Source: Cochliopodium minus (lineage: Eukaryota > Discosea > Himatismenida > Cochliopodiidae). From it: a stretch of DNA of 46,453 nt. Both the position numbers and the translations under genes were made by a program. The stretch lies in assembly GCA_024220525.1 (NCBI GenBank), contig JAMYWO010000205.1, positions 1-46,453 of the forward strand. Direction: 5' to 3'. Numbering within the stretch: position 1 is the first letter of the stretch; every line of letters begins with the position of its first letter. The notes under the pieces are model-generated. The model was not told the origin of the DNA and did no database searches. It worked only from the letters and a program-made list of their open reading frames with translations. This document shows, one piece after another, positions 1 to 46,453 of this stretch.

Positions 1-1341
1 GCAATTGAAGCAAATAAAAGAAAAATCAGTTGGAATACAAAGGAAGGAGTGAAAGAACCAAATTACTGGGGAAGTATCACTCAATCATCCACTGTATCAA
101 TTGGAATTGATGAGAAAGGAGATGATGTTTACATTCCTTTGGGAAATCTTCTTCCAATGGTTCATCCAAATGATATCGTGATTGGAGGATGGGATATCAA
201 CAAAGCAAACATTGCTGAATCAATGAAACGTGCATGTGTTTTCGATTATGATCTTCAAAGACAATTGCATCCTCATCTTGAACATTTGATTCCAATGCCA
301 TCGATCTATTATCCTGATTTCATTGCAGCAAATCAAAGTGATAGAGCAGACAATTTGATTGAGGGAGATGATAAACAAAAACATCTTGAAAGAATCCGTT
401 CTGACATTCAAAAGTTCAAACAAAGCAACAGCTTGGACAAGGTTGTTGTCATTTGGTCTGCAAACACTGAAAGATTCGCTGAAATCATTGAAGGAGTGAA
501 TGATACTGCAGATAACCTTTTGAAATCAATCAAAATCTCACACTCTGAAGTATCTCCATCAACCATCTTTGCAGTTGCTTGTATTCTTGAAGGAGTTCCT
601 TTCATAAATGGATCTCCTCAAAACACTTTTGTTCCTGGTGCAGTTGAACTTGCAGAGAAACACAAATCTTTCATTGGAGGAGATGATTTCAAGAGTGGAC
701 AAACCAAAATGAAATCAGTTCTTGTTGATTTTCTTGTTTCAGCAGGTATCAAACCTGTTTCGATCACTTCTTACAATCACTTGGGAAATAATGATGGAAA
801 GAATTTGTCTGCTCCTTCTCAATTTCGCTCCAAAGAAATCTCAAAATCAAATGTTGTTGATGATATGGTTGCATCCAACGATATTCTTTACAAAGAAGGA
901 GAACATCCAGATCACATCGTTGTTATCAAGTATGTTCCATATGTAAAAGACTCAAAGAGAGCACTTGATGAATACATCAGTGAAATCTTTATGGGAGGAC
1001 AAAACACCATCTCAATGCATAACACTTGTGAAGATTCTCTTTTGGCCTCTCCTTTGATTTTGGATTTGGTAATTATGGCAGAGTTGTTCACAAGAATCCA
1101 ATACAAAACTGAAACAATGAGAAACTTTTCTCCTTTCCACTCTGTTTTGTCGATCCTTTCATACTTGCTCAAAGCTCCTCTTGTTCAAAAAGGGACTCCT
1201 GTTGTCAACTCTCTTTTCAAACAAAGAAGTTGTATTGTTAACATCTTTAGAGCTTGTATCGGTCTTCCTCCAACCAATGAAATGCAACTTGAGAACAGAA
1301 CTTGGAAGACAACTGGAGAATCAATCTTGACTCCAAATTAA
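1..1341 (+). CDS. INO1: myo-inositol-3-phosphate synthase, C-terminal 446 codons (5' end cut by window edge)
   Basis: Converts glucose 6-phosphate to 1L-myo-inositol 3-phosphate with NAD, the first step of inositol and phosphoinositide synthesis in the cytosol. The frame is open from base 1 (AIEANKRK...), so the apparent GTG start at 49 is internal. Family landmarks are [20 protein letters not shown], the catalytic-region [36 protein letters not shown] and [20 protein letters not shown]. There are no introns. The missing N-terminus, with the NAD-binding glycine loop, is found at 19809-20054 and 18016-18249, and base 1 follows on exactly from the codon where those fragments stop. TAA stop at 1339-1341, then convergent PEX11 after 155 bp. 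The identification is secure; which of the two N-termini belongs to it is inferred. Confidence 0.95.
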
Positions 1342-1496
1342 AATATTTATTTGTTAATTAAACTTTTCCGAAAATAATCTTTCTTTTTCAAAAATAGTTT
1401 TTATTTTTAAATAATTTAATTTTTAATAAATCATTGATTTCCACCATAGCTTGTACAATTCAAATATTAAATAATTTCATGCTTATTATCCACTCT

Positions 1497-2165
1497 TCAT
1501 TTCCATCTCTTATAGATTCCAATCAATCCATTTATCATTCCAAAGTAACCAATAGACTTTGAAGACCAGTTATTCTTCCAATTAGGAAAACAGAAATAGA
1601 TAGCCAGCTGCAAATCAGCAAAGTAGGAGATGAGGGTGATGATGGTCTCCTTTATCTTCTCACGTCTCTGCAATTCCTGCTTATGATCGCCTGATTTCTT
1701 TGAAATTTCTCTATTTAACTCCCTTATTTCATAAGCTATCCATACTAACACAGATACCATCCATGACCAACTTCCCACAAAATTATAGCTCCAATCTGAG
1801 AATTTTTTATTTAGCGGCAATATATTGTAATCCACAAGGAACGGTATATTATCAACGAAATAGTAGAAAAAATCAGAGATATGTGCACATAGCAATGCTA
1901 TCCACATTACCTTATTTTCTCTTTTAATATTTTCTTTGGAGAAATGATCTATCAATCCTGGCACTATATTGAGGGACATGAAAAACCTCCCTACTCTTCT
2001 GGCAGATCCCATTGATTGTCTGAATTCTTCCAATGTTTTTGCTCTCTCCTCATTTCCACTTTCTTTTGCTCTCTCTATGAATATTCTTGATCCATAATGC
2101 AACACCTTTACTATTTTATCTCTTCCACCATGATTATCCAACAAATTATTGATCTTTGACAACAT
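1497..2165 (-). CDS. PEX11: peroxisomal membrane biogenesis protein PEX11, 222 aa
   Basis: PEX11 proteins bind and elongate the peroxisomal membrane and promote peroxisome division. The N-terminus has the family signature DKIVKVLHYGSRIF (residues about 15-28), a mid-region SMGSARRVGRFF and a hydrophobic C-terminal half (WIALLCAHISDFFYYFVDNI and a second segment near the end). The frame is open upstream of the first ATG, but only a TTG lies there, within A-rich DNA, so I start at the ATG at 2165 (MLSKINNLLDNHGGRD). That gives 222 aa, usual for the PEX11C-like type. It is a single exon, unlike most genes here. It lies convergent to the inositol-3-phosphate synthase gene and tail-to-tail in order with NOC3 on the same strand. 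The ECH/ECI-like gene at 20993-22348 is the other peroxisomal gene in the window. Confidence 0.88.
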   Translation of the reverse strand: MLSKINNLLDNHGGRDKIVKVLHYGSRIFIERAKESGNEERAKTLEEFRQSMGSARRVGRFFMSLNIVPGLIDHFSKENIKRENKVMWIALLCAHISDFFYYFVDNIPFLVDYNILPLNKKFSDWSYNFVGSWSWMVSVLVWIAYEIRELNREISKKSGDHKQELQRREKIKETIITLISYFADLQLAIYFCFPNWKNNWSSKSIGYFGMINGLIGIYKRWK

Positions 2166-2396
2166 TTTTTTCCAAATCAATTTTTTTTTTTTCAATAAAG
2201 AAAAAACTTGGGATTTTATATTTTACCAAACAAATTTAAAAAGAAAACAAAAAGAAAAATCAATAAATTTTTAACTAACTTATAAATTATCTAAACACTG
2301 CTAGAAACTTTAACTTGCCTTTAATAGACGAAAAATTTTTCTTTTACAAATAGTTTTAAATTCAAATAGATTAATTAACAAATAAATAAAAAGTTT

Positions 2397-5300
2397 TTAA
2401 TTTCTTTTCTTTTTGTGATATTTGAAGGAGAGTTTCTCATAAAGATCATCTTCTTTAAGCAAGAGTTTCTGGGAGTCAATGAGAAAATCGCTTGGGATAT
2501 TCTCGGGAGCCTCCCTAATTAACAATTCTACCATTTTCTTTCTCTTTTTGCTTTCAGGCAACTAGAAAAAACAATATTAAAAAAAGAACATAAAAAAAAA
2601 TGAAAATAAAATAAAAAATTATAAATAAAAGTGAAATAAAAATATTTTTTTTGTCAGAAATTTTATTAGGTAGCTCAGAGTTGTCTGCAAAGAATTAAGA
2701 CAAATGCCTGAAATCATCATGATCAAAAAATATGATTCAAAAAAAAAAAAGGGGTACAGAAAAATAAAAAATAAAAATAAAATAAAAAATAAAAATAAAA
2801 AAAATTGTAGAAATAAAATAAAATAAAAAATTAAAAATAAGAATAAAATAAAAATTAATAAATTTTTTTTTCTACCTTTGTTATTTTTAAATATTTTTTA
2901 TCCAAAGGATGTTTTTTAGGTTTTTCAATGGGAGGATTAAAACCGCCAGTAGAAGTGTCATAAGCAGTGACCTCATGCAAAGCATCAAATCTTTCATTCA
3001 AAGGAATTTCTTTGCCTTGCAATATGTCACGGGAGACTCTTGAGATGGAGGGGTGGTAGTGTTGGGTGAGTAATGGGAGCTCCCACAGGCCGGTGGAGAA
3101 AGCGGAGCTGTGGTCTGGATCTTCTACGAATGGCAAGAAAGTACCTGCTCCTGTTGTTTCTTCGTCCAACATTTGTTGTAATCTTTTTTTTTTTTTTGTT
3201 ATTGGAAATGGTGAGTAATGATAATAAAAATTAAAAAAATAAAATAAAACCATTGTTAATAAAACAATTGAAATAAAAATTAAAAAAATTGAATAATACT
3301 TTAATTTGAGGTTTAAATAAGTTAAAAAAAACAATTTGGTAAAATCAAAATAAATGGAATTTAATTTAAATAAAAAATAAAAAATAAAAAATAAAAAATA
3401 AAAAATAAAAAATAAAAAATAAAAAATAAAAAATAAAAAATAAAAAAATCACAAAAGGAGAAATATAAAAATTTTAAAAAATAAATTTAAAAACCTTGGC
3501 TCGTGTTGCAACATCATTCGAATTACTCTCAAAAAACCCATGGTCAAATTAGGAGCACTGACAAGAGACAAAGTGGCCATTCTCTTCATATAAGCACCAC
3601 TTCTCAACAAGAAGGTCATCTTTCTTTGGATGAACATGGTTTGGAGACACTTCACTGCTGCGAGGGATATTTTGTTTTCTCTTCTTTCTGTGATTTCTGT
3701 GATACGTGGGTAGAGATATTTGAAAAATTCTCCAAGGTCTACGTTCAATACGTCACCAGTACCTTTGAAGAGAAAAAAAAAAGATTAAAATTAATGGTGA
3801 TATTATTAAAAAAAAAAATAAATAAATAAGAATTAAAATAACAATTAGAAAAACACAAAATAAGATAAAACAATGAATAACAGAACAACAAAAGTAAAAT
3901 TTACTCATGTAAAAAATTTTTATTGAAATTAAATTTGGAAAAAAAATAATAAAAAAAAATAATGAAAAAAAAATAATGAAATAATAAAAAAAAGAATAAA
4001 AAAAAATTAATCGTAAATTCTTTGTGAATTGTAACAAGACAAAATGAAATATTTTACTTTCTTGAAGTCCAAAAGCAGCCAAAACAGCATTCAAAGAACT
4101 TTCCAAGGAGAGTTTTTGTTCGATCAAAATGTCTCTGAGAGTTTTCAACAAATCATCCATAAAGTCAACGTTGATGAGATGCGCATACTTTGCAAGACCC
4201 TCCAACACAGGAGGCAACAACTTGTTGTTGTTGGTGTACTTCAAAATTCTGAAGTAGGTCAAGAACATCGACTTGAGGATGTTAGTTTGGAACATTTGTT
4301 CTTGTTGTTTGTTCTTTTCTGCTTTGGAGTGTTCCATTTCCTTTTCGAATTCTTTGTTTTCTTTGTGTTCCTAATAAAAAATAAATATTAAAATTATAAA
4401 AATATTAACACAAAATGAAAAAGATTCAAAATTTTTTGGAAATGATTTTGAAATATTCAAAATTAAATTAATAGACAAATATTTATCTAAATATTAAGAT
4501 AAAATATTGAATAAAATTACTAAAATGTTGATATAAAGAATTTAACTTTAATAAATTATAAATAAAATTGAAATAAAATATTGAAATAAAGATTCAAGAT
4601 GGTTGTTTTACTTTTTTCTGTTTACGAGACATTCTCTTTTTGGAGTTTGGATTTATTGTTGGCTCATATGGGTTGATATTTTTGACCTCTGATGTAAAGT
4701 TGACGGACATGAAACTTTCGATGATTTCTGGTCTAACATTGAACTCTAATTTAGGAAAAAAATAAAATAAAAAAATATTTAAAAATCGTTTTTGAAAATA
4801 AAAAAGTTACTTTTAAATTTTATAGATTGGGTTACAAGTTGTACAGCTTCTAAAACAGAATCTAAATTCTTGTTCATAGAAAAGACAGAAGAAATGGAAG
4901 AGATAGCAATCTTGGAGACGTCAGGATTATTGGAGTGCATCAAAGGAACCAAAACAGAGACGATATTCTTACTGAAATTGAAGCTAGGATTAAAGATCAA
5001 AAGCTCAGAAAGACACTTGATGGCAATCAACTTGAACTTTGTGACTTGGTTGGATTCGTACTTGGAAAAGTTGGTTTTGAGCACTTTGTCTATTTGATCG
5101 TTTTGTTTGATCTTGATGATGTTCTCCAAAATGAGCAAGTACTTTCTGTAGTTCTCCAACAAGCTAGCTTCGAACTTTCTTCTCTTCAGAACATCTTTGG
5201 AGACCTTGGATTTAAGTTCTTCTTCGGTGGGCATTCTGAGTCTGTACATAGGACGAAGATCTTTGTAGATGGACATTATGGAACCAATAGCCAACTTCTT

Positions 5301-6108
5301 TACGGTGATATCGCTATCGTAGATGAGTTTATTCAGTCCTGTTATTTTAAGGATGTTTTGTTCGGGATCTTCCAAGATGGAAGAAGCGATCGAGGCGATC
5401 TCTTCTTTTTTCTGTGTCATTCTTTCGTTTCTTTTTTTGAAGAGTTCCATTTCGAGCATTCTGGGATCCTGATTCGCCAACTCCTCCAAATTTTTATCAT
5501 CTTGACTGTATTCCTCGACAACTTCGATATCCATATCATCATCTTCATCATCTTCCTTGTTTCCCTCCCCGATATCTTCTCCTTCCTCCTCATCCTCTTC
5601 ACTGGATGATATCGAATCGAATACTAAATCTGTTCTCTTTTTGAGAAATCCATCTTTGGTTTTGATAGGTAACAAATTTCCTCTCTTTTCTTCATCTCTC
5701 CATTCTTTTGGAGCCTTTCTTGGCTGTTTCTCGAATTCCGATTCTATTGTTTTTTCTTCTTTATTATTCTTTTTTGATAGTTTCTTCTGTTTCAATTTTT
5801 CTCTTTCTTGTCTCTCATTCAATGCTTTGCTTTAAAGAGGAGATATAAATTTTAAAAATTGATAAATTATAAAGAAAAAAAATCTACTTTGTAGGAATAT
5901 CATTTTCATTTTCGAGCAAAAATGATATTTTATCTTGATTTTCTTCAATGAAATCAATATCTTCTTTTGTAACTCCATGTTCCAATTTATCTTTGTAAAT
6001 ATCTGTTTTTATAATTCTCTTTTTTTGTTTATTAGGTTTTTTTGATTTTGGTTTGTTATTGTTTGGTTTTAAATTGTTTTGATTTTTCTTAGCATTCTTC
6101 TTATTCAT
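2397..6108 (-). CDS. NOC3: nucleolar complex protein 3 (NOC3/NOC3L), 7 exons, 808 aa
   Basis: NOC3 pairs with NOC2 to carry pre-60S ribosomal particles from the nucleolus to the nucleoplasm; yeast Noc3 is also tied to replication origin licensing. Inferred exons: 6108-5888, 5829-4811, 4745-4612, 4370-4058, 3762-3495, 3182-2876, 2561-2397; all phases agree and give 808 aa, close to the human protein (about 800). Recognisable segments are KDLRPMYRLRMPTEEELKSK, FNFSKNIVSVLVPLMHSNNP, FLTYFRILKYTNNNKLLPPV, LEGLAKYAHLINVDFMDDLL, GAGTFLPFVEDPDHSSAFST and GLWELPLLTQHYHPSISRVS. The N-terminus is lysine-rich and basic, followed by a long acidic stretch (codons at about 5490-5610) typical of nucleolar factors. 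It is transcribed away from the V-ATPase gene across a 457 bp shared spacer. The A-rich intron at 3183-3494 (forward view) contains a heptamer array. Confidence 0.93.
3369..3448. repeat. (AAAAAAT)n heptamer microsatellite in a NOC3 intron
   Basis: About 11 nearly perfect copies of the heptamer AAAAAAT, seen directly. It sits inside the intron between NOC3 exons 5 and 6. The same heptamer (or its complement) recurs at 20056-20130 and 45666-45720. Confidence 0.95.
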
Positions 6109-6565
6109 ATTTGGTGATTTTGCATTTTTTTTCTGTTGTGATCAAAATTATTGTAAGGAAACATGTGGAAGATTTATATTCGATACATACCATCATTTTG
6201 AATAAAATTCTGTTTTTCTCAATTATTTATCAAACAAATCTCAAAATCTTGATTTTTTTTTTTTTAATTTTTCTCCATTTTTTATTTTCTTTTTTCAATT
6301 TATTGGAGGTTATAGAATTTTATTCAATCAATTTTAATTCAAATTTAGATCCAATTAGAAAATTTTGATACAATGTATCTTTTTATTTGAAAGAATATAC
6401 TTTTAGAAAGAAAAAGTGAAAGAATTATAAAAACCAATCAAAAATAATTTTAAAATAATATATAAAAAAAAAAATAAAGGTAATATAAATATTTTTAAAA
6501 ATACTCACCTATCCAAAAAAACATGAATTCATAATTGTTAAAATATCAAAAATAAAGTTTTTAAG
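6109..6565. promoter_or_regulatory. divergent intergenic region between NOC3 and V-ATPase subunit a
   Basis: 457 bp of AT-rich DNA between two start codons on opposite strands, so it must hold both promoters unless these lie within genes. I see no clear TATA or initiator element that stands out from the AT background. The open frame across 6111-6368 has only low-complexity hydrophobic coding potential and is not called as a gene. Confidence 0.55.
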
Positions 6566-9207
6566 ATGGTAAAAAAAAATATCTCATAAACAATTTTTAT
6601 CCCTTTATATATTAATATATCAAATCATAAATATAAATAGGGAGAACTCTTTAGAAGTCAAGAAATCCAATTAATACAGCTCTTTATCCAGTTTGATGCA
6701 GCTCATGATACTGTTGAAGAGCTTGGTAATCTTGGGAGAGTACAATTTAGAGATGTAATATTTAAAAAAAAATTTTTTTTTTTTCAATGAATATAAAATC
6801 TATGGAGAAATAAATTATACTATAATTTTAACCAATAATAATGTATATATTAGTTAAATTCAGAGGATACTGCTTTCCAACGTAATTTCGTTAATGATGT
6901 TAAAAGATGTGATGAAATGGAAGATAGATTAATCACAATCTTAAACGAACTTGCAAGAGAAAAGAAAGAAGGAGCAGATTTTATTGTGGAAGATTCTGGG
7001 CTTGATAATAAACCAATCACTATGGATGCTTTGGAGGTATAATTTTTTATATTCATTGATCTTTCTGAAAAATTAATTAATATTTTTAAAAAAAATTATA
7101 GCAAAGATTAGAATTAGAAGAAAGAGAATTGGTTGGTGAAAACAGCAATACCGAACAATTGGAAAGAAGAAAGAATGAATTGACTGAACTTAAACATGTA
7201 TTAGAGAAAGATTCCACCTTCTTCCATGAAGCAGGAGATATCAGAGGAGAATCAAATCTTGAGGGAGAATCTATCAACCTCATTTCTGGAGAAAAGGGAA
7301 AAGATGATGATTTTGAAACTCCATATCCAAAAATGGGATTTAATTTGGGATTCATCACTGGTGTCATCCAAGAAGATAAATTCCTTGCTTTTGAACGTGT
7401 CTTATGGAGAGCAACAAGAGGAAACTTGTTCATGAGAAGCGAACAAATCCATGATTATATCATTGATCCACATACAAGAGAAGAAGTCACCAAAGTTGTA
7501 TTCATCATTTTCTTCCAAGGTCAAAGAATCCAAAACAAAATCAAAAAAATCTGTGAAGCATTCAAGGCGAACATCTACCAATGTCCTGAAAGCGCAAATG
7601 AAAGAAATGAATTGTTGAGAGAGATCAAGACCCAATTGAAGAATTTAGAAATTGTTATCGAGAAGGGTAAAGAACATAGATTGAAAATCCTTAGAAGATG
7701 TGGTTCTGAAATTAGAAACTGGGAAGTTAAAGTAGCAACTGAGAAATCAATCTATCACACCATGAACTTGTTTAACTATGATCATGGGCGTAGATGTTTG
7801 ATTGCAGAAGGATGGTGCCCAAAAGAATGCATAAATGAAGTACAATATGCTCTCCGTAAAGCAACCGAAAGATCTGGTTCTGTTGTTCCATCCATTTTAT
7901 CCATCATTCAACCTAACGAAACTCCACCAACCTACTTTAAGGTAAACAAGTATACTGCTGCTTACCAAGATATTGTTGATGCTTACGGTATTCCTCATTA
8001 TGGAGAAATCAATCCTACTGTATTTACCATCATGACCTTTCCTTTCCTCTTTGCAGTGATGTATGGAGATATCGGTCATGGTATTTTGATTTTGTTGTTT
8101 GCTATTGCTCTCCTCGCAAATGAAAAGAAACTCGCAAAAGTAAAGATGAATGAAATCTTGCAAATGATGTTTGATGGTCGTTATGTCTTGCTTATGATGG
8201 CTATCGGAACATTGTATACTGGTCTTTTATACAATGAGTTTTTTGCTATTCCTATGAACATCTTTGGATCAAAGTGGGAGAAATGTACTGGTCCTTATTT
8301 GTGCCCAAATCCTAACAAACCTACCTATCCTTTTGGTGTTGATCCTGCATGGAAAGGTTCAAAGAACGAATTGATCTTCCTCAACTCTTTGAAGATGAAA
8401 TTGTCTGTCATCATTGGAGTAATTCAAATGATGATGGGTATCTTTATGCATTGTTTGAATGCTATTCACTTCAAGAAGTGGTACAACATCTTTTTTGAGT
8501 TTATCCCTCAAACTCTCTTCATGTTGTCCATCTTTGGTTACATGGACTTTTTGATCATTCTTAAATGGGTTAAACCATGGCCTGATCCATCCAAAGCACC
8601 AAACATTATCAACGTCCTCATTCAAATGTTCTTGCAACCAACCTCCCCTGATGCAATCAATCTCAACCTCCTCGGATCTGTCCAAAAACCAATCCAAATC
8701 GTTCTCGTCATCATTGCAGGTATCTGTATCCCAATCATGTTATTGCCTAAACCTTTACTCTTGAGAAGAGATGCTATGAGAGGACACCACGATCCTGAGC
8801 ATGGAGATCATTTTGAATTCGGAGAAGTCTTCATTCATCAATTGATTCACACCATTGAGTTTGTTCTTGGATCCATTTCCAACACTGCTAGTTATTTGCG
8901 TTTGTGGGCTCTTTCTCTTGCCCATGCTGAACTTTCCATTGTGTTTTGGGAAAAGATCATGGTTGCTATGTTGGGTCTTTCTGATGGATCTAGTGCTGGG
9001 TTCGTTTACATGTATGTTGGTTTTGCTGTCTGGGCTGCTTTCACTGTTGGTGTGTTACTTATTATGGAATCTTTGAGTGCCTTTCTTCATGCTTTGAGAT
9101 TACATTGGGTAGAGTTCCAAAATAAGTTCTACCTTGGTGATGGACGTAAATTTGCTCCTTACAGATTTAATGATCTTGTCCTTGCCAACTCATTTATTCA
9201 AGTTTAA
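6566..9207 (+). CDS. V-type ATPase 100/116-kDa subunit a, 4 exons, 801 aa
   Basis: Subunit a of the membrane Vo sector forms the proton half-channels of the vacuolar/endosomal H+ pump. Exons: 6566-6568, 6641-6754, 6854-7036, 7102-9207. Exon 1 is the start codon alone (ATG then GT), and exon 2 continues GELFRSQEIQLIQLFI; together they give MGELFRS, the same first seven residues as I recall for animal a1 subunits. The cytosolic N-terminal half has LGNLGRVQFRD and LNSEDTAFQRNFVNDVKRCD. The C-terminal half has about eight membrane segments, including FPFLFAVMYGDIGHGI. The essential proton-pathway arginine is present at residue 700 in SYLRLWALSLAHAEL. Same strand as UBA1, 202 bp upstream of it. 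Family assignment is certain; the single-codon exon is inferred. Confidence 0.96.
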
Positions 9208-9409
9208 TCACAAAAATTAAAAAAAATTTATATTTCCACATAATTTGAAATACAAATATTCCAATTAAACATGTTATTTAATACCAAATATACCCATCAT
9301 TAGTTTGATGAGTTTTTAAATTGTAGATAATAAAAATTGTAATGTATTAAATAAAATAATAAAAAAATAAAATCGAAAAAAGTACAATATCAAACAAAAT
9401 CCATAACAA

Positions 9410-12400
9410 ATGAACGAGAATAAAGAGAATTTAGAATATGATGATAAATGGTCAAGGTAAAATTTTTTCTTTCAAATTTAAATAGGACAACAAATTTACT
9501 TTTCATAATTTGCTTTTAAATAGATTGATTCACGCAATTGGAAAGGAAGCTTTGATGAAGATGGTATTCAAAATTTTTTAAAACAATTTCTTCAACTCAT
9601 TATTAAATTATCCTCCTAATAAAATTTAATTAGCAACAAGCAAAAATTTTAGTATCAGGATTGAAAGGTCTTGGAATGGAAATTGGTAAATATTTTTGAT
9701 ATATATCTTGAAATTTATTTTTTAATTCCTCATCAAATCTTGATATTTATAGCTAAAAATGTTGTATTGATGGGTATTAGAAAATGCACAATCTATGATA
9801 ATGAAAAAGTAGAAATCAGAGATCTTTCATCCCAAGTAAAAACATTTTTTTCGATTTTATCACTAAATAATTCAAAAAAAAAAATATATTTCAATATTTG
9901 AAATATCATCCAATTTAAATTTTTCTTTTTAGTTCTTTTTGAGAGAAGGAGATGTTGGAAAAATTCGTTCTGAAGTAGTCAGACCTAGACTCCAAGAATT
10001 GAATGATGGATGTAATTTGGATGTTGCCAAAGAAATCAACGACGAAATCTTGCTCCAACACACTATTGTCATCATGACAAATAACAAATCTCTCACTGAA
10101 TTGAAGAGAGTCTCAGAATTGTGCCATGAAAAAGGTATTGCATTCATTTGTACTGATACTTTTGGATTGTGGGGTTATGGTTTTGCTGATTTTGGAAAGG
10201 AGCACATAATTACTGATAAGAATGGAGAACCTGCAACTGAAGGATATATTTTGGCTTTGATTAAAGATGAAAACAATCAAGGTAAAATTAAATTATAATT
10301 GAATAATATACTATCATGAAGTTTTATAAAAACAAATTATCTTTTAAAAACAAGATGTACAATTAATTTTTTAAATCATCTTTATTTTAAAGGATATATC
10401 ACTTCTCAAACAAGACATAATCTCGAAGATGGAGATATCATCAAAATCGAAGAGGTAGAAGGATACAGCTCTTTGAACGGAAACAGTTTCAAGGTTGAAG
10501 TGAAGGGTCCTTTCGATTTGGCCATTGGAGATTTGAGCAAGTACGAAGGAAACTACGTTAAAGGAGGAATGTACATTTTGCAAAAGCTTCCAACCAAACA
10601 TTCCTACAATTCTATGGGATCTTTGTTGGCTGAACCTATTGCTTTTGACAAGGTTGTTACTTTGGATTGGGCATACATGGGAGAAAATGCACAAAATGTT
10701 GTTCTTTTCCAAGCTTTGCTCGCTTTCAGAGAAAAACACAATGGTGATTTGCCTCGTTCTTACAATGACGAAGATACCAATGAAGTCCTCGAGTTGGCAA
10801 AGAAAATCAATGATGAAACTGAAAAAACAGAGTTGAACATTGACTTGTTGAAGAGAATCATCAGACAATCCAGAGGAGACTTAAACTGTATGGCTGCATT
10901 CTTTGGAGGTATTTTGGCCCAAGAAGCTATCAAATCTCAATCCGGTAAATATGTTCCTCTTGATCAATTCTTCTTCTATGATGCAGTAAGAAATTGCTTG
11001 CCAGAGAAAGAGTTGGACTTGTCTGAATACAAAGAAGAAGGAACAAGATACGATGGTCAAATTTGTGTTCTAGGAAAAACAGTACAACATCAATTGGAAA
11101 ACTTGAAGTACTTTTTGGTCGGAGCAGGAGCTATTGGATGTGAAATGTTGAAAAACTTTTGCATGATCGGTCTCTCTGCAGGTAAGGAAGGATTGCTCAA
11201 AATCGTAGATTTGGATATCATTGAAATCTCCAACTTGAATCGTCAGTTCCTTTACAGACCTCATGATGTAAAGAAACCAAAAGCAGAGTGCAGTGCTAGA
11301 GCTGCAAAGGTGATGAACCCTAACATCAACATCCAAACCTTTACCACCAAAGTATGCCCTGAAACCGAAGATGTATATAACGATGAGTATTGGAATGGTT
11401 TGGACGGTGTTTGTAACGCTCTTGATAACTTGCAAGCCAGACTTTATGTTGATTCCAGATGTGTTTTCTACAGAAAGAGTCTTTTGGAGAGTGGTACCTT
11501 GGGAACTAAAGGTAACACCCAAGTTATTGTTCCTGGATTGACTCAATACTATGGTGAAAGTAGAGATCCTGAACCTACTGAAACTGCTAGAGTAATTCTT
11601 CACATTCTTCTTTTTTTTTTCGTCAACTTTTTATTTACCAAAATTTTTTTTTTAGTGTTTGTTACATTCTTTCCCATCTAACATTGATATGTGTCTTCAA
11701 TGGGCTAGAGAATTGATCTTTGAAGGAGAGTTTGTAAGTTACATCGAATCATTCAACAACTACCTCAAAAAAGCAGATTACATTGACACCATGGAAGAGA
11801 TGCAACTCAGAAAGACTTTGGACAACTTTAAGAAGATCCTTCCTCTCCCAAAGAGCTTTGATGATTGTATCGTATGGGCAAGAACTCAATTCCAACAATA
11901 CTACAACCACGATCCTAAACAATTGATCCACAACTTCCCTCTTGACAAAAAAGATAACAATGGAACTCCTTTCTGGACTGGAACAAGAAGACCTCCTATT
12001 TCATTGGAATTTGATGCTAAGAACGATGATCATGCAAACTTTGTTGTTTCTGCTACCTTTTTGAGAGCTTACACTTGTGGTATCATCGATAATGAATTGA
12101 AACCTGGTGATATTGAAGACAAAGTGAAACACATTCTTAGTGTTGCTTCAAAGGTCACCTTCCCTCCTTTTGTACCTGCCAAGGGTTTGAAGATTGCAAC
12201 CAACGAAGAAGAAGAAAAAGAATTGCAAAAGTCTGAATCATCTGGAACCAAAGAGGAACTTCTCAAGATTCTTCCTCCACGTGAATCCACCAAACCTTTG
12301 GTTATTTGCGATTTCGAAAAGGATGATGACAGAAACTTCCACATTGACTTTATTCACTCTAGTTCCAACTTGAAAGCAGCTGCATACAGCATCAAATTAG

Positions 12401-12963: not shown

Positions 12964-13414
12964 AAACCAATTCATAAATAAATTCTATTCAAAAAACATA
13001 ATAAAATTAAAAATTTTTTTATTTGAACAAAGCAAATTCATATTCTTTAATGATCGAGTATTATTTTGTGAAAGAGTATTCTCTTTTCTTTTGAGTTTGC
13101 TTTTGATTGAATCAATTAGTATAGAAGTAACAAGTTTGGATCGATGTAATCAAAATTGGATTGTTTGATTGCAAAGTCATCAGAAAAAAGAATTTTGTGA
13201 CTGCTTTTCAATTTTGGGCATGACAATATGAATACATAATTGAAAAGAAACATCAAAGTTTGTTGATCTTCCTATCTTATGTTTTTGTTTTTGTGAGTTC
13301 TAGATCATCAAAAATGAAGAAACAAAGAATAAAATTTTATTCTTTTGACAATAAAATTTTAATAAAATATTTTTTTTTTTGAAAACAAGAAAATAAAAGT
13401 CAAATTCGTTTGTT
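12964..13414. other. convergent intergenic region, UBA1 / eIF2 beta
   Basis: 451 bp between two 3' ends. AT-rich, with poly-A and poly-T tracts that may serve as polyadenylation signals for each side. No open frame with coding character, and no tRNA-like cloverleaf that I can see. Confidence 0.5.
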
Positions 13415-32788: not shown

Positions 32789-32883
32789 TTGAAGAAAAAT
32801 TTATAGTCTTATATTGAAATCAAACACTATTTTTCTTTTTATTTATTTTTTTTTTTTTTTTTTATTTAAATTATTTTGAAGGA

Positions 32884-34320: not shown

Positions 34321-34370
34321 CAATTTTTTTTTATTTATTTTTAATTGTATTTGATTTTTTAACCAAAATA

Positions 34371-35553: not shown

Positions 35554-35640
35554 CAATTTTTTTTTTTTATTTTTAATTTGATTTTTTTTTATTTTTAATA
35601 TGTATACAAAATAATTGTTTATTTAAATATCTAATTTTCA

Positions 35641-37264
35641 TCAATTCAAAATGATCAAGTTATTGACGATATAAGTGATAGGTTTAGGAAACTTTCCAAA
35701 GTTCTTGTTAGTTTTGTTCCAACGATAAATAATCATCAAAAATAGTCTGATTCTTGTTTGAATCTAAAAACAAAAAAAATAATTTAAAATTAAAGTAAAG
35801 CCAAATAAAATTAAGTGATCATAAATAAGTTTTGATTTCGGGTTTTACTTCCAAAGAAAATTGTTGATGAACTTCAGTAGACCATTCAATTTTTTTCGAA
35901 ACATATCTTAAACATCTTTTGAGAATCTCCACCTCATCTTTATTTGAACACCTGTTAAAAGTGATATAAAAAAATTATTAATTAACAAAGAAGCAATTAT
36001 TTTGAAAAAGATACTCAGAGGCAAAAGATATTACTTTTCCTAGTCCATAACTTTTTTCTGCGATCATAGGAAGACCATTTGAATAACTTGCTAATTTAAA
36101 TTTAAAAAATTAATTAATTTTTATATTTTTACATATTTTTAAAAGATTGAATATCTCCAAAAAAAAATTATATTTACCAATTAGTGTTGAACCTTCTGTT
36201 AGCTCCAATTTTACGCCACTAGCATTGAAAGATCCTATTCCAACCAACAAATCATGAACATGGCTCCCAGGGATATAATCAGAAGAAACATTAAGATCTG
36301 ACCATGAAGATTCGACTGTTTTGCAAAAAAAATCAAAATTATATTGAAAATTTCTTAGTAAAAATGATATATAAGGGTCAATATTATAATATGATAATTT
36401 GGATCTCATTTATAGTTTTTATGTTAGACATAAAAATTGATCCAAATTATATGGCTCATATTAAATTCTCACAAAAAAATTTTGATTTTCATGAAAAAAA
36501 AATTAGATTTTCATAAAAAAAGTAATTTAACCTTTTAAATCTAGATGTCCATTTTTACAGTGCAAAGGATCTTTCAAAATTTTTTGTTAAAAGGTTAGAT
36601 CGAAAAAAATAATATATCAGTTTACGAGGAAATCTGTAAGGAAGACACCAGTCAGCTCCAGATCCAAAATTATTTCCTGGCTTAAATATAACTACTCCTC
36701 CCCCTTTTTTCATTTGTTTTTAAAATATTTAGAAGAATTATTAACAATTTTTGTACCATTTTTAACATACTCCATCAAGGTATCACATGTTTTCTCCCTA
36801 TCTATTAACTCCGTTCCTATCATTTCAAATAAAATTTTAATATAACATTTTTATTTGGGTTATTAAAATATCAACCACTACATGTGAATACAGCTCTTTA
36901 TTATTTCGAATAATTAAATAAAGAAAAAAATCTATTCCTTTTCCAATTCACCTATAATCTATTATTTCATTCAATTCCAATGCTTTTTTGCAAAATATCA
37001 CTGATTTGCATTTTGAAAGCATTTCATCCCGTGAAACTCCAGAATTCCTGGATATCAAGAAATAAGATTCAACTAAATGAAAGAAAATAAAATATATAAC
37101 CCTGCTGTATTCAAGAAAATGTAATAATCCTGCTCGTTTTCTTTTATCTCCATTATCCATTCTTTCTTTTTTTCTTTTCTTTCCTTTTCTTTTTTTTCTT
37201 CTTTTTTTTCTTCTTTTATTTCTTTTTTGTCTTTCTTTTTAAATAAATTCTTGAATACTTTCAT
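35641..37264 (-). CDS. GATase-like-fold protein, cluster member 3, multi-exon
   Basis: Most complete of the three. A Lys/Glu-rich N-terminal extension (MKVFKNLFKKKDKKEIKEEK...) precedes NEQDYYIFLNTAG. An internal ATG at MEIKENEQ is an alternative start matching members 1 and 2. Exons then encode SGVSRDEMLSKCKSVIFCKK, REKTCDTLMEYVKN, GGGVVIFKPGNNFGSGADWC, HPLHCKNGHLDLK, WSDLNVSSDYIPGSHVHDLL with VGIGSFNASGVKLELTEGST, SYSNGLPMIAEKSYGLGKVI, EVEILKRCLRYVSKKIEWST and FLMIIYRWNKTNKNFGKFPK, with TGA at 35641-35643. The exon between DYR and REKTC (AVFT) is my least certain junction. The 87 bp spacer to member 2 and the shared orientation point to tandem duplication. Function unknown; the fold call is by strand pattern only. 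Confidence 0.65.
36617..37063. repeat. near-identical block, copy in member 3
   Basis: Partner of 35020-35463. Identity extends from the exon encoding VVIFKPGNNFGSGADWCLPY through the exon encoding SGVSRDEMLSKCK. Confidence 0.9.
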
Positions 37265-37572
37265 TCCAATTCAATGTATTTGTTTCTCTTGATATGAAGA
37301 TTTTATCTTCTTTTTGCTATATTTGATTTTTTTTTTATATAATTGTTATTGTTGAATTAAAATCAAAATATATGTGCAAAGAGATTGGAGTTTGGTTTCA
37401 AAATGATCAAATTTTTTTCCAATATCAAATGTTAAAGAAATATTTTTTTAGTTTGCCAAAATATAAAAAAAAAATTTATAAATATATATTTTCTCTTCAT
37501 TTATACTTCTCAATCTATCTCACGAGAGATAATATCATCAAACATTATAATTATAGAAGAATATAAATTCAA
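37265..37572. promoter_or_regulatory. divergent spacer between cluster member 3 and the F-BAR gene
   Basis: 308 bp between opposite start codons, AT-rich. A short open frame (37372-37566, plus) is low-complexity and overlaps nothing conserved. Presumed bidirectional promoter; no specific motif recognised. Confidence 0.45.
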
Positions 37573-39991
37573 ATGTCATTAACATATGGAAATGAAATGA
37601 AGGTATAGGATAAAAATATTTCATATAATCACCATAATGGCGATTATTTTCGAATATTATCTCATAATATAAACTTGTAGGATGGATGGGATGCAGTTTT
37701 TAAGAAAACAGAAGAATCTACATCATCTTTGGGCGAAGTAAGCAGTTTTTTGTCCAAGGTACATGAAGCAGAGAATTCACACGGAAAAAGCCTTCAAAAA
37801 ATATCAAAAGTCCAATTTGATAAAAAGGGTACAAAATCTTATAGAAAATCAAAGGTGATGGATTATGAAGATGGAACTGTAAAATCAATGTTTACTGAAT
37901 TTCATGAAAAATTATATGAAAGTGGAAATAAACACATTGAATTTTCTACAAATGTATTAAAATTACATGAAGAGATAGAAAATTGGTTGAAAGAAGCTGA
38001 AAAGAATAGGAAAAAGGTATAAAAATATAAAATTTATTTTTACATTCAAAGAGATTGATTCTATACAAAGATAATCATCCAAAAAAAAATAAAGGATTTT
38101 AAATATTTCAACATTAAATTTACTTTATTGTACTATTCACTTTATATAAATAAATATCATAATGTTTCCTCATAATCTTAAAATTCCTCAATCCTTATCT
38201 TCCTCCAATCAAAATTTTTTTTTTATAGTTAATAAATGATGCAAAAGAAGCAAAGAAAGAATATGATACTGCACTTGATAAATTGAAAGAATCTCGCCAA
38301 GTATATGAAAGAACATGCAAGGAAGCAGATAATTCTATCGACAGTTATTTACAATTTAAAAACAGTAAGGATGCAAAGGAGAAGGATGTGAGAAAGAAGG
38401 CCAGTTCTTGCAAACAATTGATTGAGAAAGCAGATACTGCTGATACAGCATATAAATCTACTTTGCAAAAAACAAATCAAACCCAAACTTCTTATTATGA
38501 TCAAAAAATGCCTCATATCTTGAAGGTAAAAGAAATTTTGTTTTTTATTGAATTTCTTCTTTTATATCAAATATGAGATTATATCTCCTTTTAGATAATT
38601 TCCTTATCACGTAATATGGAAATTTTATTTCCCAAATTAATTATAAAACAAATGATTCAATGAAAATTAAAATCATGACTCAATATAATTTATCATATTA
38701 CTATAAAATGATGTAATCTCCCATCCAATATAAAATTAATCTAACAATATTACGATCAATATAGAACTTTGAAGAATTTGAAAGATCCAGAATAGTATTT
38801 CTTAAATCAGTTTTTGTCAAATTCATGAATCTTCAGAATGAATTCCCCAATTTCGTTCAATCTTACACCACCTCTCTCCAAAACGTAGTGGATTCCATAG
38901 ATAGTGAGCAAGATATCCAAATCTATCTCGGAAAAAGTAAAACTGGTGTGGTCAATCCTAAAGAAATCGATTATCAACCATATGATAATGCCAATCCTGA
39001 TTTCAAAACATCTAGAATGAGCAAACAATCAAGTGGTCAAACATTGAGTAAAATAAAAAAAAAAAAAATCGACTAATTAGATTCAATTTAATTTGAAATT
39101 TAAAATTTTAAAAGAAATTTATCATTTAATAATCATTTTTTTTAATAAACTTTTTTTTTTTTTTGTTTTTATAATTTAGTTACTGACATTAACACTAATT
39201 CTGGTCCAACTATCTCAACTAAGAGCAGCACAAGTTTAAGTCATTCTAGTATCTCCACATTCAACCCAAGCTCTGAGCCCAAAGAGAGCAAAGATGGAAA
39301 CCCAAGTGATCTGTATCCTGGTTTGACAAACGAAATTTCAAATCTAGCTTTCGAGGATCAAAAAAAACATCTTGATAATCAATTAAATGAAATAAAAGGG
39401 AAAATAAGGTAATCTTTTCTTTTTTTTTCTCTAAAAATATTAATTTTTCATTATTTTTTATTTAATTTAATTTTTAAAATTTTCTCAAAACTTACCATTT
39501 ATTTTTTTACTTTTAGAACATTAATTAAAACCAAAAAAGAACTTCAAAAGTTAGTCTCATTTTACCAAAACGATCCCAAAGCAGCAGGTAGCGCCCAACA
39601 AGCAGTGGAAACCCAACAAAACCTCATTCAAAAGTGGAAGGACCAAAAAGCCAAAATCTTGCAAGACTTGCAATCCATTTCTGGTGAAGAAAATGTAGGT
39701 GAAGATGATAATGAAGGTGAGGGTGGTAATGTTCAAGAATCTTCTCCTAGTACTGGTGGTGGTGCCAAAGCTATTTGTCTTTATGATTATGACGCTGCTA
39801 ATGACACTGAGCTTTCTTTCAGGGAAAACGATATTGTTTACGTCACTGAGGAGGACGATTCTGGTTGGTGGTATGCTGAACTTAACGGAAAGATGGGTTT
39901 TATTCCCAACAATTGTAAAAGTTTTTTCTTACTTTTTTTTTATTTTTTATTTTTTATTATTAATTTTTTTTTAGATGTCAAGAAACTCTGA
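37573..39991 (+). CDS. F-BAR / HR1-like / SH3 protein (CIP4/TOCA-like), 7 exons, 529 aa
   Basis: Membrane-curving adaptor that couples endocytic or protrusive membranes to actin assembly. Exons: 37573-37602, 37681-38016, 38229-38525, 38765-39047, 39180-39408, 39517-39914, 39975-39991; phases agree. Residues 1 to about 260 are an F-BAR coiled coil (GEVSSFLSKVHEAENSHGKS, YDTALDKLKESRQVYERTCK, SYYDQKMPHILKNFEEFERS). After a Ser/Pro-rich linker comes an HR1-like antiparallel coil (about 370-450: LDNQLNEIKGKIRTLIKTKK). An SH3 domain closes the protein (about 474-529: AICLYDYDAANDTELSF, SGWWYAELNGKMGFIPNNYV). The domain order matches CIP4/FBP17/TOCA proteins, in which HR1 binds Cdc42 and SH3 binds WASP-family proteins. 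The 17-nt last exon supplies the end of the SH3 domain. Confidence 0.9.
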
Positions 39992-40301
39992 TTTCGACAC
40001 TAATTTTCACTCAACGTGTTCTGTTTCATGTTGTGCGCAATTATAAAAACAATTTTTTTTAATAAAATTTTATTTGATTTATAAACAATCTCCTTTTCTT
40101 TAAACTTTTACCAACATTGAAGAGATCTTTACATTTTCTAATAAAGGTTTTTCTTCCAAAACAACAATTTGTTCTTTTTGACATATTGTCGAATTCACAG
40201 AAAAAAAAAATAAAAAAAATTGTCATCTGATTTTCAATTTTGATTTTACCTTCAAAAGAGAAAGAATTCTTATTTATCCCTTTCCATAGATTTTTGTATA
40301 C
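39992..40301. other. intergenic region between the F-BAR gene and the RGS-CLU gene
   Basis: 310 bp between two plus-strand genes. It holds the presumed terminator of the first and the promoter of the second. No recognisable element. Confidence 0.45.
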
Positions 40302-43300
40302 ATGATGAATCAAAAGAGAAATGATACTTTGAATATAGCTGCAGAATTATATTCGATATGGGGAAGCCCAGATAGAAGCCAAAGGTTCGAGAATTTCTTG
40401 AGATCGAGATTATGTGAGGAGCCATGGCTTTGTTGGTCTTCCATCTCTGATTTCCTCGAATGGATCAGAAATGATACGATAGGCGGTGTCAAACAAAGGA
40501 ATACCACCTTCATAAAGATCGTGGAGGATTTCATTGAAGAAGGGGAGGATAAACACACAATAAATATCTCTGAAAAAGATTTTAGGGAAAAGTTATTGTA
40601 CATCAAAGAGGATTTGAAGCAGGGTAACGATAATGAATTTGATATACGTCCCATCTTTGAATTGCAGGCCAAAACCGAGATTTTGATCGCAGAGAATTTG
40701 AAGCAGTTTTTATTCGAGAAGCAGACTGATGGTGAGACTAATAATGGAAAGCAGACAGAAAGTCTTATCTTGGATAAAATCATGGAATTATGTGTAGTGT
40801 CTTTATTTGAGCTACAAACAGGTATATCGAAAGAAAAAAAAAATATTAATATAAAGTTCATAATTTGAAACAAAAATATTAATATAAAGTTCATTAGGAA
40901 CATTACAAAAAAATTTGATTATCATCATATTATGTGGATATATATTTATCGATTTTCAAAATAAAAGGAAAAACAAAGAGAATATATAAAAAGAACAGAT
41001 GTGTATTGAATCCCACCAACAAAACCCTCACCCTCTACAACCAAGATGGAGAATCCTACTATGATTACAACGTGATAGATCTCAAATACGTGAGATTCAT
41101 CTACCCAGACGAGAAAGAGAAGATCAAGAACTTTGAGATACAGTATCTCACACCCACATCACAAAGGATCTTTTATTTCAAAACGCCACTGGCACAAGCA
41201 GAGATGTTTGCCTCACTAATAAACTTGATAACAAAGGAAAGAGACGAGAAAATCAAGACGGTGAACCAAGAGGTGATGCATTATCTCCGAATCCCTGTTA
41301 TTCATCCTCTCAACAGCTTTTTGGAGATTCTTAGAAGACACATCCAATTGAAGGAAGAAAGCATGGTTCTTCTCGAGAACCAGATCCTCATCGAAAACAA
41401 CAACGAGTCTCCCACTTTGAAAAAAGAGAGCGAAACGGACATTTTCACCAACGAAACAAGCTCGGACGTTTCAGACAAGAAAAAGAAGAAGAAAAAAGGC
41501 AAGAAAGGCTCTTCGGAGTCAAAATCCAAAGCAATCTCTTCCTACATCACCTCCATGCCCAACTCGATGATCTCCAAGTACGGAAACCCTTTGCCCAAAA
41601 TCAGCGGGAACAATCCCAACCCCATTTTTAGCTACAGTTCCGTTTTACCCGAAAACATGAATGGAGGAAACAGTGATAAATCTAAAGAATCTCCCCGTTT
41701 TTTGGAGTGGTCCCAGGATACTAAGAGTGAGGACGATTCTTCCAGTGAAAAGGACGAAAATGTTAAGGACACTGGCATTTTGGACTTTAATGGGAAGTTC
41801 CAGCTCTTGATCGAGAAGCTCCGTAAGATTCCTGACAGGTTCATCCAAGAGAAGTTGTCAGTGCAACAAGAATTAATCCATTTGTCCCAAGATTTTACCA
41901 AGTCAGCTAGGTATTTCATATTTTTTATTTGATTATTTTATTTTGTTTCATTTTATTTTTTATTATGAATTATTTATTTTAATTTTGTTCGATTCATTAT
42001 TTTTTTTTATTTTTTGTTGTGAATTATTTATTTTAATTTTGTTCGATTCATTATTTTTTATAGATTATTTATTTTTTATTTTTTTTCATTTTTTTATTAT
42101 TTATTATTTATTTGTTATTTTTTATTTTGACAATTATCATTTCATATTTTTATTTTCATTTTATTTTTACTTTTTATTATTTATTATTTGAAGGCGTTAC
42201 GGAAAGATCATCATCTCAGAAGTTTATAGACCAAATAAATTCAAAACAATCAAACCTAAAGATGTGGGAGGAGTGATCGGTGGTGAAAAATATATTGTCA
42301 ACAACATTCTCTTCAAGTTTGCTGTTGACCATCACAAATTATTGGGCGAAAATGGAGATGCTTATGCTGCCAAGATTGCAGGGCGTAAACATTTTTTTTT
42401 TTGAATCTTTTTTAAAGTTTTATTATTTTTTTTTTATTAATAATTTAGATGAGTTGAAGGGATTAAAAGCTTTTTTCAATTTGAATTTCAGTGGAATAAG
42501 TTTTCCTTTGGTAAATATTCATTTTTTTTTAATTTTCTTAAAATTTTATTTAATTTTTATTTTTGTGAAATTTTATATTTTACATTTTTATTTTTATTTT
42601 TATTTAAATGAATATTTAATATAAAACAGATGTCATTGATAGATTACAAAGGATTCCGTTTGATTGCTGTGTCATTGCTCCCTTTGTCCAAAAATTCTCT
42701 CATTTATGGATCCAACGATGCAGGAGAAACCATCCATAGAGAAATTCCTGAACTCAACAGAAACATCGATGCTGCTGCGAAAAAACTCAACTTGAAACCT
42801 CACAAATGTGGTAAAAAAGGAATTTTGATGGGTGCTTGTGTAGATTTAGAAGGTAAAAGAAAAAATTAATAATAAAATAATTAAAAATAAATGTTAAATA
42901 AATGCAAAAAAAGTTAAAAGTTAAAATATGATAAAATAAAATTAAAAATTTTTTAAAAAGTAATTTAGTGAAAATTTTTAATAATTATAATGTCAAAAAA
43001 TAATTTAAAATATAGAGATGTTCAAAACTTTACAACAGTTCAAAATTTGTTAGTTATAAATTAATATTCGCTAACAAAGTTATAAATTTTGGACATGTCT
43101 ATTTAAAATATTTAAAAAGAAGTAATAATAAATAATATTTGTAAAAATAAAAATAAGATTGGATGCAAAAAAAAAAATTATGTTTGAAATATTTGATAAA
43201 TAATAAAATTAATAATTTAAAAATAGATGAATTTAAAATTGAAAATTAAAAAACAAAATAAAAAATTTTTTTTTTGGAATGTAGGACACAGAGGCACTGA

Positions 43301-46300
43301 TGGAAGGTTTTATATGTTAGATTATTCCAGAACTTTTCCTTGTGTGAAGCCAGAGTCAAGCATAGTGGGAGGACATCTCTTCAGAATGTTCAGACCTGAA
43401 TTTGTTGTCAACTTTAAGTTTTTTCCTCTTTGTTCTGACGCATATTCTCGTTTCATTGAGTAAAAAAAAAATAATAATAAAAATATTAAAAAAATATTAA
43501 AAATAAATATTAAATAAAAATAAAATAAACAAAATTATAAAATAAAAAATGAAATAATTTAGGAAATAAGATTATAAAAAATGAAATGTTACAAAATGAA
43601 ATAATGAAAAAATAAAAAATAAAAAATGAAATAACAAATAAAATAAAATAAATAATTAAATAATAAATTGGAATAATAATAGAAATAAATAATAAATAAA
43701 AAAATAAAAAATAAAACATTAAAACATTAAAACTTTTTTTTAGAACTCAGCCTGATGCAGAAGAACACAACAGAGAAATAGACAGTGCTACTAAAGAGTT
43801 GATAAATGTTGTTATTCCCAATTTTGCCAGAGAATTGCTCCAACTCATGGAAGTTGAAGTCAAGTTAAAAGGTAAAACCAAAAAACTAAAATAATAAAAT
43901 AAAATAATAAAAAATAAAATTAAATTGATCTAAATTAATAAAAATAAATAAAAATGTAAAAAATAAAAAGAAAAAGTAAAAAAAAAAATTAATGTAATAC
44001 TAATGTAAATATAAACGCAATAAAAATAAATAAATAAAAATAAATTAAAATAAAAAAAATTAAATTGATGAAAATTAAAAAAAAATGAACAAAATATAAA
44101 TAAAAAAATAAAAACCCACATAATTAAAATAATTAATGAAATTTTATTTAGGAACGATTTATGACTTCAGGTTGACAGAAGTAGTCCATTCAAATGGAAT
44201 AAATATGAGATACATGGGATTGATCATCAAGAAGATGGGAAGACACAAATACAAGGATGCCATTCTTGTCAATATGATTGCTCGTATCATCAAAAACCAA
44301 ATCAGAGCCCTTCTCAGAAAGGAGATGTACAAAGAAAAACTTGCTATCGATGAACCATACAGGTAAAAAAAAAAATTAAATATTTCCATTTTTTATTGAA
44401 AAATTTTTTAAATTTTTATTTTTAATTCTTTTATTTGAATTATTTATCTTTTTATTTTAATTCTTATTTTTATCAAATTTTTAGAATTTTTATTTGAATT
44501 ATTCATCTTTTTATTTTAATTCTTATTTTTATCAAATTTTTATTTTTAATTTCTTTATTTGAATTATTCATCTTTTATTTTTATTTTAATTCTTCTTTTT
44601 ATTAAATTTTTAATTTTACTCATTTTTATCTTCTTTTTTATTTACATCTTTTTCTATTGAATTATTTAGTCTTTAAATGAAAATTTCTGAATTATATTAA
44701 TCTATTTTTCAAAATTTCTGGATTATATTAATTTATTTTTATTTTTCTTGTTAATTATTTAATTTAAAATAAATTTTTATTAATCTTTTTTTTTTTCATT
44801 TGTTTTCAAAGAATTGCAGTGATGGATTTTTTGAATCTTATTTTCGGTAACACTGAAGAGTCTGTTAAGTTTTGGTCTGAAGTTATTGTTTCCCAGCTCA
44901 AGGAAAAGTTCAACCTGTATCCCGAAAGTTGGAACGATTTTCCTGTAAAAATACAACAAAATAAAAAAATAAAAAAAATGAGAATTGTGATAAACTAAAA
45001 AAAAATGAAAAATATTAACTAAAAATAATAACTAACAAAATAACAATTAAAAAAAATATTTGAATTAAAAAAAATAATGAATAATAAATAATTCGAAAAA
45101 TAAAAAATACAAATAATAATATTAAAAAATAAATTATAAAGAATTAAAATGAAAAAATTAAAATAAAAAGAATTAAAATGAAAAAATAAATAATCATAAA
45201 AAAATAAAATTAAATATAAATAATAATATGAAATAATAAAATAAAAAATGAAAGAAATAAAAAATAAACAAAATTAATCCAAAAAAATTTTAAAAAAATT
45301 ATTTTGAACAGAAAAATTTAAGAGCTTATGTATTTGGGAACGAAGAAGATAAACAAGAAAAAGAAATGGTTACCAATTCGATCAACTCTCTCAAACTTTC
45401 CACCATTAATACAAATAATCCTCCCAAGGAGGTGGAGGCTTTTGATAGAAGGTACTATCTCTTCAAAGAAGTCCAAAAGATGGTTGGGTAAAAATAAAAA
45501 ATAAAATAAAAACAAAATTAAAAAATTAAATTTAAAAAAAAAAAATAAACATTAAATATAAAAAAATAAAATAAACATTAAAAATAAAATAAAAAATAAA
45601 CATTAAAAATAAAATAAAAAATATTAAAAACTAAGATTTAAAAATAAAAAATATTAAATAAAAAAATATAAAAAATAAAAAATAAAAAATAAAAAATAAA
45701 AAATAAAAAATAAAAAATAAATTCAATAAAAATAGTATTAAAATAAAATAAAAACAAAAAATAAAAATAAATAAATAAAAAATGAAATCAAAAAAAATAA
45801 AAATCAACAAATATTAACACAATTTTTTGGATAATTGAAACTTACTTAAACCAAAAAAAAAATTTTAGAATTAAATTCGCACCTTCTGTTTACACGCTTT
45901 TGAAAAACCATCCAACGATCTACGAGCAAAAAGAAATTTTCAGCGATACCGACGTGTTGGGACTGGGAATCAAAATGAAGAACTTGGACATCATCTCCAA
46001 TGCCAAGGGATATGTCTATCAAATCAAAGGACAAGGTGATAAAATAATAATTTTTTATTTTCATTATTACTTTTAATTTTTATTATTTTATTATTTTTTT
46101 TTAATTATTTTTATTTTTTTGAATTTTTTAACAGAAAAAGAAACATCTGGATTTTACCCCTCCGCAAAGAGTTTGTACGAGCAGGCCAAGGACTCTTATG
46201 AACAAGCGCTCAACTCCAATCCCACTGACCCTCGTCTCCTTCGTAACTTGGCTTCGGTCATCTACAAAATATACAAGTAAAAAAAATTTTATTTTTATTT

Positions 46301-46453
46301 TAATTTTAATATTTTATTTTTATGAAATATTTTAATTTTTAATTTTTAATTTTTATTTTTAATTTTTAATTTTTTAATTTAATATTTTTTTTTGTATTTT
46401 TATCATTTTTATTTTATATTTTTTTTAGCTCCTAATTTGATAAATCAAGTTGC
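40302..46453 (+). CDS. RGS + PH-like + CLU + TPR protein, at least 1023 aa, runs to window end
   Basis: Exons: 40302-40821, 40968-41910, 42194-42384, 42449-42510, 42630-42852, 43285-43459, 43744-43871, 44152-44362, 44812-44944, 45312-45487, 45869-46035, 46135-46276, 46429-. Residues about 15-150 look like an RGS domain (RFENFLRSRLCEEPWLCWSS, FIKIVEDFIEEGEDKHTINI, PIFELQAKTEILIAENLKQF). About 175-275 is PH-like (NRCVLNPTNKTLTLYNQDGE, IQYLTPTSQRIFYFKTPLAQ). Then a Ser/Lys-rich linker, a CLU domain at about 490-800 (GKIIISEVYRPNKFKT, SLIYGSNDAGETIHREIPEL, HRGTDGRFYMLDYSRTFPC, GINMRYMGLIIKKMGRHKYK) and TPR-like helices (ESLY-type, SYEQALNSNPTDPRLLRNLA). CLU proteins act in mitochondrial distribution and mRNA binding; RGS domains switch off G-alpha subunits. 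The last exon reads into TAA (46433-46435) in the expected phase; one base of shift would keep it open (APNLINQV). The probable 3' end is at 20144-20859. Confidence 0.85.
41956..42060. repeat. two-copy tandem repeat in an RGS-CLU intron
   Basis: A unit of about 55 bp occurs twice in a row, recognisable by the phrase AATTTTGTTCGATTCATTA at about 41983 and again at about 42038. It lies in the intron 41911-42193. Confidence 0.8.
43013..43101. repeat. imperfect 89-bp inverted repeat in an RGS-CLU intron
   Basis: The left arm TAGAGATGTTCAAAA and the reverse complement of the right arm, TAGACATGTCCAAAA, match at 13 of 15 positions. A second inner pair (TTTGTTAG / CTAACAAA) flanks a loop of about 17 nt. 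The intron (42853-43284) is otherwise plain A/T-rich filler. It could be a tiny foldback (MITE-like) insertion or a transcribed hairpin. Confidence 0.7.
44422..44612. repeat. three-copy degenerate minisatellite in an RGS-CLU intron
   Basis: A unit of roughly 60 bp containing TTTGAATTATTCATCTTTTT and TTATTTTTATCAAATTTTTA is repeated about three times with small length differences. It lies in the T-rich intron 44363-44811. Confidence 0.75.
45666..45720. repeat. (AAAAAAT)n heptamer microsatellite in an RGS-CLU intron
   Basis: About eight copies of the heptamer, the same motif as at 3369-3448 on this strand. It lies in the intron 45488-45868. Confidence 0.9.

Follow-up and report, generated by a model that had tools for sequence, protein, structure and literature searches.

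The window analyzed here, i.e., a whole stretch of 46,453 nucleotides (nt), is a complete contig of the Cochliopodium minus genome assembly (GCA_024220525.1, 44.65 Mb in 598 contigs; contig JAMYWO010000205.1, hereafter C205), and consists of four blocks of sequence separated by runs of N. Two kinds of genes are cut at the edges of these blocks, namely INO1 and an RGS-CLU-TPR gene. An earlier reading of the letters alone (the original prediction) had noticed these cuts and proposed that the blocks were in the right order but flipped in place. Here, the cut genes were confirmed to be real and the proposed interpretation of C205 was supported, with two amendments given below. The blocks and gaps are as follows:

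1–17892, block A
17893–18015, gap A/B, 123 N
18016–20054, block B
20055, gap B/C, one N
20056–27575, block C
27576, gap C/D, one N
27577–46453, block D

Genes cut at the block edges of C205

Pieces of INO1 were found in three of the four blocks:

1–1338, + strand, INO1 core of 446 codons, without the N-terminal ~80 residues and cut at the scaffold start (Pfam, structure alignment)
1–1344, + strand, stretch probably identical in both INO1 copies and assembled once, its middle part being inferred
18016–18249, − strand, INO1 head 1, 78 codons, exiting B at the left
19809–20054, + strand, INO1 head 2, 82 codons, exiting B at the right
27502–27575, − strand, INO1 3' tail of a second copy, entering C from the right

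The core in block A was identified through NAD_binding_5 (E 1.6e-135) and Inos-1-P_synth (E 1.6e-37). The two heads of B point outward, one per end; they differ near their start codons, the 62 nt before their final base are identical, and the final base itself differs (G versus A). As originally claimed, both heads leave B at the codon before base 1 of the window: this base is the start of the codon directly following the one that ends the heads, so that A continues with the next codon. When head 2 was added to the core, the combined protein aligned over nearly its full length to four solved INO1 chains, with a gap-free junction in the two alignments printed; the best chain scored 635.8 bits with the core alone and 729.3 bits with the head added. 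Head and core carry both INO1 families and are colinear with INO1 over the full length only when joined over the gap. In one Pfam scan, 4 of 10 open reading frames of the window, including both INO1 heads, were without a family, as were 2 of 5 queries in a second scan.

The INO1 tail said to enter C from the right was found as well. The right edge of C is identical to A 1268–1344 over exactly 77 nt, and the 3' flanks diverge beyond. On a plain reading of these sequences, C205 would hold two head-to-head INO1 genes with identical cores that were assembled once, the contig ends being repeat boundaries. The second INO1 copy lacks 1267 nt between B and C, which were presumably collapsed into A. 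Although both INO1 joins of B heal, as first proposed, only one of the two copies becomes whole. A search of the genome (some stretches of which read N) with the INO1 core protein returned matches in C205 only. For the head DNA of B, 40 of 174 candidates were scored, and apart from A/T-rich stretches these contained no match other than the query region. The INO1 pair itself combines divergent N-termini with an apparently identical ~1.34-kb core (18016–20054 with 1–1344, and 27502–27575), and this identity suggests a recent gene conversion or duplication.

The second type of cut gene spans blocks D and C:

40290–40865, + strand, RGS-like exon, start of the gene exiting D (PF00615, E 0.0021, below the curated cut-off)
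42192–43340, + strand, CLU domain exons (PF13236, E 2.4e-32)
46135–46276, + strand, first TPR exon, with a donor GT at 46277 and the next exon at 20144
20056–20130, + strand, perfect period-7 array (TTTTATT)n of 75 nt, intronic, at the left edge of C
20144–20858, + strand, last three TPR exons and the two introns between them, running in at the left edge of C

Here too the original observation of a gene exiting D at the right and entering C at the left was borne out: the D exon 46135–46276 and the C exon 20144–20297 splice in phase, with one of three frames open over the join, and the resulting gene carries a CLU domain followed by TPRs as does the CLU-TPR family. Six of eight paralogous loci (L036, L038, L039, L040, L041, and L043) aligned to the joined D/C peptide, all of them over the junction, while L037 and L042 yielded no alignment to it at E 1. 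Against a longer C205 reference, in a run that left out L037, L042 (on C74) aligned in one piece from residue 18 to 603. The cut between D and C sits within an intron, and the final 25 nt of D (46429–46453) do not continue as the next exon: a search tolerating up to one mismatch places them once in the genome, and they are out of frame with the preceding exon. This short stretch follows an AG and is less A/T-rich than the intron before it. More broadly, CLU genes appear largely expanded in this genome, with 151 CLU-family matches (pieces rather than genes, nearly all of them listed), and a literature search found no matching report of a CLU/RGS expansion.

To compare possible arrangements, we evaluated all 192 distinct orders and orientations of blocks A–D. 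None of the three joins was healed in 94 layouts, one in 78, two in 18, and all three in only 2, i.e., A−,B+,C−,D− and A−,B−,C−,D−, which differ solely in the orientation of B. As written, 0 of 3 joins heal. The claim that keeping the order and reverse-complementing A, C, and D would restore every join at once was therefore verified, this being the only such layout among the 192 aside from the orientation of B. That B would fit either way, with an INO1 head at each end, was likewise correct: each head closes with a Gly codon that the same Ala codon would follow, so that the sequence fits both orientations.

The proposed cause, i.e., contigs placed in order but written on the wrong strand, was retained in its layout and replaced by a simpler equivalent in its mechanism. 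Since flipping in place yields the same molecule as the order D-C-B-A in which A, C, and D keep their strand, seen from the opposite side, the simplest fault is a reversal of order without complementing. The four contigs of C205 would thus be real and correct neighbors concatenated in reverse order, and the true molecule would read D-C-B-A on the + strand of the blocks, with B either way. Judging from sequence comparison, the order of C205 is almost certainly a scaffolding artefact produced by contig reversal, rather than biology.

Predicted cuts in other scaffolds

A TPR query identified 12 matching places in 11 other scaffolds. Six of these (C84, C269, C196, C74, C80, and C170) carry CLU then TPR at short distance and in normal order, with the order in C170 taken from coordinates only and that in C269 from CLU-like exons in L037 instead of a Pfam match. 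In the remaining five (C192, C324, C61, C32, and C159), the TPR lies on the same strand as the CLU of the same scaffold but on its wrong side. For these five scaffolds, the gap positions expected under a reversed contig order were set down before the sequences were examined. A gap or a scaffold end was then found at the predicted edges of the cut CLU-TPR gene in 5 of 5 cases:

C324, gap at 33400; the CLU N-part runs off the scaffold start
C192, gap newly met at 40069; gap at 59953 already seen before the prediction
C61, gap at 156349; the CLU part runs off the scaffold end, where a gap had been predicted
C159, gaps at 9603 and 44277
C32, gap at 63570; the 3' part runs in at the scaffold start

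We next asked how the two halves of each gene relate to each other, using as reference a peptide built from the C205 exons. The C205 halves end and start at residues 517/512 of their own reference (end of the 5' half/start of the 3' half), and the corresponding values were 413/412 for C192, 215/221 for C61, 217/247 for C159, and 286/297 for C32. For C324, where the two numbers are on different scales, the 5' half extends to position 183 of 225 of the Pfam CLU domain and the 3' half starts at reference residue 174, within the last part of the CLU domain. Overall, the two halves of a gene join up with an overlap of no more than a few residues, and the cut points mostly differ between scaffolds, those of C61 and C159 being close. 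As written, none of the seven stretches neighboring these cuts (430 to 969 nt) matched the CLU-TPR gene. By translation, the as-written neighbor in C32 (63571–64000) resembles a phosphoribosyltransferase without its N-terminus at gap 63570, and that in C192 a secreted enzyme.

These results bear on two alternatives in which C205 would be wrongly scaffolded without a general rule. Single-join scaffolding errors are common, and a local, one-off mistake limited to C205 would be unexceptional in itself; yet in 5 of 5 predicted scaffolds the halves show one and the same arrangement, with the strand kept and the sides swapped, and two more scaffolds (C598 and C580) fit as well, so that such an isolated mistake is very unlikely. 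Contigs could alternatively have been placed in random order and orientation within each scaffold, e.g., through dropped orientation flags, and genes at gaps would break under this process too. However, random placement is estimated to yield this arrangement in ~1/4 of cases, compared to 5 of 5 plus the C205 D/C gene here, and the three joins of C205 all heal with neighbors unchanged; we consider this scenario extremely improbable. Contig reversal instead very probably represents a systematic fault of this assembly, as indicated by the five further scaffolds with cut genes and by C598 and C580, and it is likely that every multi-contig scaffold of the 44.65-Mb assembly was concatenated in reverse contig order.

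Contig ends, repeat arrays, and gaps

Exact 77-nt overlaps between contig ends were observed in two cases, C205 (C-right/A) and C580 (Y-right/X), while B abuts A without overlap at either end. In C580, the right piece carries a diverged copy of genes located at the left end of the left piece (L020 1–930, L045), and this arrangement fits the reverse order, as weaker support than a cut single gene. The recurring 77-nt overlap points to a k=77 graph, though the edges between B and A do not show it. A short-read de Bruijn assembler run at k ~77 may thus have produced these contigs, and the break sites in C205 would be the near-identical head-to-head INO1 genes and an intron near the period-7 A/T array.

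Such overlaps also bear on whether the order of C205 could reflect a real chromosomal rearrangement, with the cut genes being broken pseudogenes. Genomes do rearrange, and the evidence here comes from the assembled sequence. Against this, all breaks examined (C205, C32, C61, C159, C192, and C324) lie at N runs or scaffold ends, contig ends overlap by exactly 77 nt, and the genome would be left with a broken copy of the sole INO1 found in it. A biological rearrangement thus seems next to inconceivable. Two marks of a misassembly were observed: breaks coincide with gaps or scaffold ends, and the cut genes are continuous in another layout.

The TTTTATT period-7 array at the left edge of C is one of many: 363 perfect 70-nt matches were counted genome-wide (192 on the + strand and 171 on the − strand, overlapping matches counted), often at contig ends, and the array also occurs at window positions 3368–3447. 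We examined 20 stretches from the 363 pattern matches and six later ones, defining an array as a run of ≥28 nt located ≤12 nt from an N. In the 22 distinct single-N gaps read, a non-random sample in which many gaps were found through arrays or CLU genes, a period-7 array was present on at least one side in 16. As written, same-strand arrays flanked both sides of 0 of these 22 gaps, and arrays on opposite strands flanked 2. Under the reverse order, both edges carry same-strand arrays in C61, C159, and C598, and the D/C join of C205 has an array on a single edge. Arrays of other periods were found at one edge in C192 and C32, and C324 combines a period-7 array on one side of its join with a different repeat unit on the opposite side. 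No perfect period-7 array bordering the gaps that were read exceeded 76 nt.

For scale, background samples (20 of ten kilobases each, mostly from small scaffolds) contained 3 short gaps in a total of 172,940 readable bases, and the targeted sequence six new gaps in 12,543 bases. Because a cut gene ends at a gap under any hypothesis, this density does not discriminate between explanations; what does is on which side, and on which strand, the other half lies.

Several observations weigh against a uniform contig reversal, or reduce the force of the evidence for it. First, when the D exon is spliced to the last 25 nt of D, a stop follows after two residues, so that D alone would let the CLU-TPR gene end there, although the paralogs do continue. 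Second, the first stretch examined on the tested side was gap-free in C192, C61, C159, and C32 and had to be extended, by up to ~2 kb, until a gap was met, and the prediction for C32 allowed two CLU copies, of which the one other than 17189–17755 was examined. Third, that the two halves occupy consecutive contigs was demonstrated only in the fully read scaffolds (C205, C580, and C598), while C32, C61, C159, C192, and C324 are mostly unread between the halves. Fourth, at position 59953 of C192, the right block opens with an open reading frame that gains a start codon if the N stands for one A. This join is therefore readable as written, though no continuation of the CLU gene to its left was found across it. 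Finally, the gap lengths misfit a clean reversal: gap B/C is 1 N though 1267 nt of INO1 are missing, and gap A/B is 123 N although B abuts A.

Possible causes and comparison with known assembly faults

Two processes could have led to reversed contigs. Paths may have been written with inverted strand flags, or from the other end without complementing; alternatively, a read-pair library may have been declared with the wrong relative orientation. We regard a path-writing fault and a misread pair orientation as about equally probable. The latter would also explain the meaningless gap sizes, but contigs of 18 kb should make it hard to obtain. Joins inside genes would also suit transcript-guided scaffolding, a weak argument because the search itself went through genes.

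For users of this assembly, genes that span gaps are split and false neighbors are created, so claims of synteny or gene fusion across its gaps are unsafe until checked. If the reversal holds for all multi-contig scaffolds, gene models and synteny across gaps would be wrong in all of them, and a single, simple re-ordering would suffice for their repair. Beyond this genome, complementary gene halves that share a scaffold and a strand but have swapped places offer a cheap, read-free test for other assemblies.

The pattern can be compared to three known faults. De Bruijn assemblers run at k=77 (SPAdes, for instance, with k values up to 77) break contigs at repeats. The contigs here resemble this case in that they stop at the edges of an identical repeat and share exactly 77 nt, with perfect period-7 arrays of ≤76 nt at the gap edges, and differ from it in that neither end of B overlaps A. 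When outward-facing read pairs are treated as inward-facing, neighbors would be swapped while strands are kept and gap sizes would become meaningless, in line with the layout proposed here; yet with long contigs many links should fail the distance check in such a library.

Lastly, an evaluation of scaffolding tools treats misassembly as an error of order or orientation (PMC4053845). The scaffolds described here are alike in that linked neighbor contigs are misplaced in order or orientation at N gaps. They differ in that every testable cut gene is reversed alike here, rather than a join being wrong now and then. Such a uniform reversal of scaffolds was not found in short literature searches.

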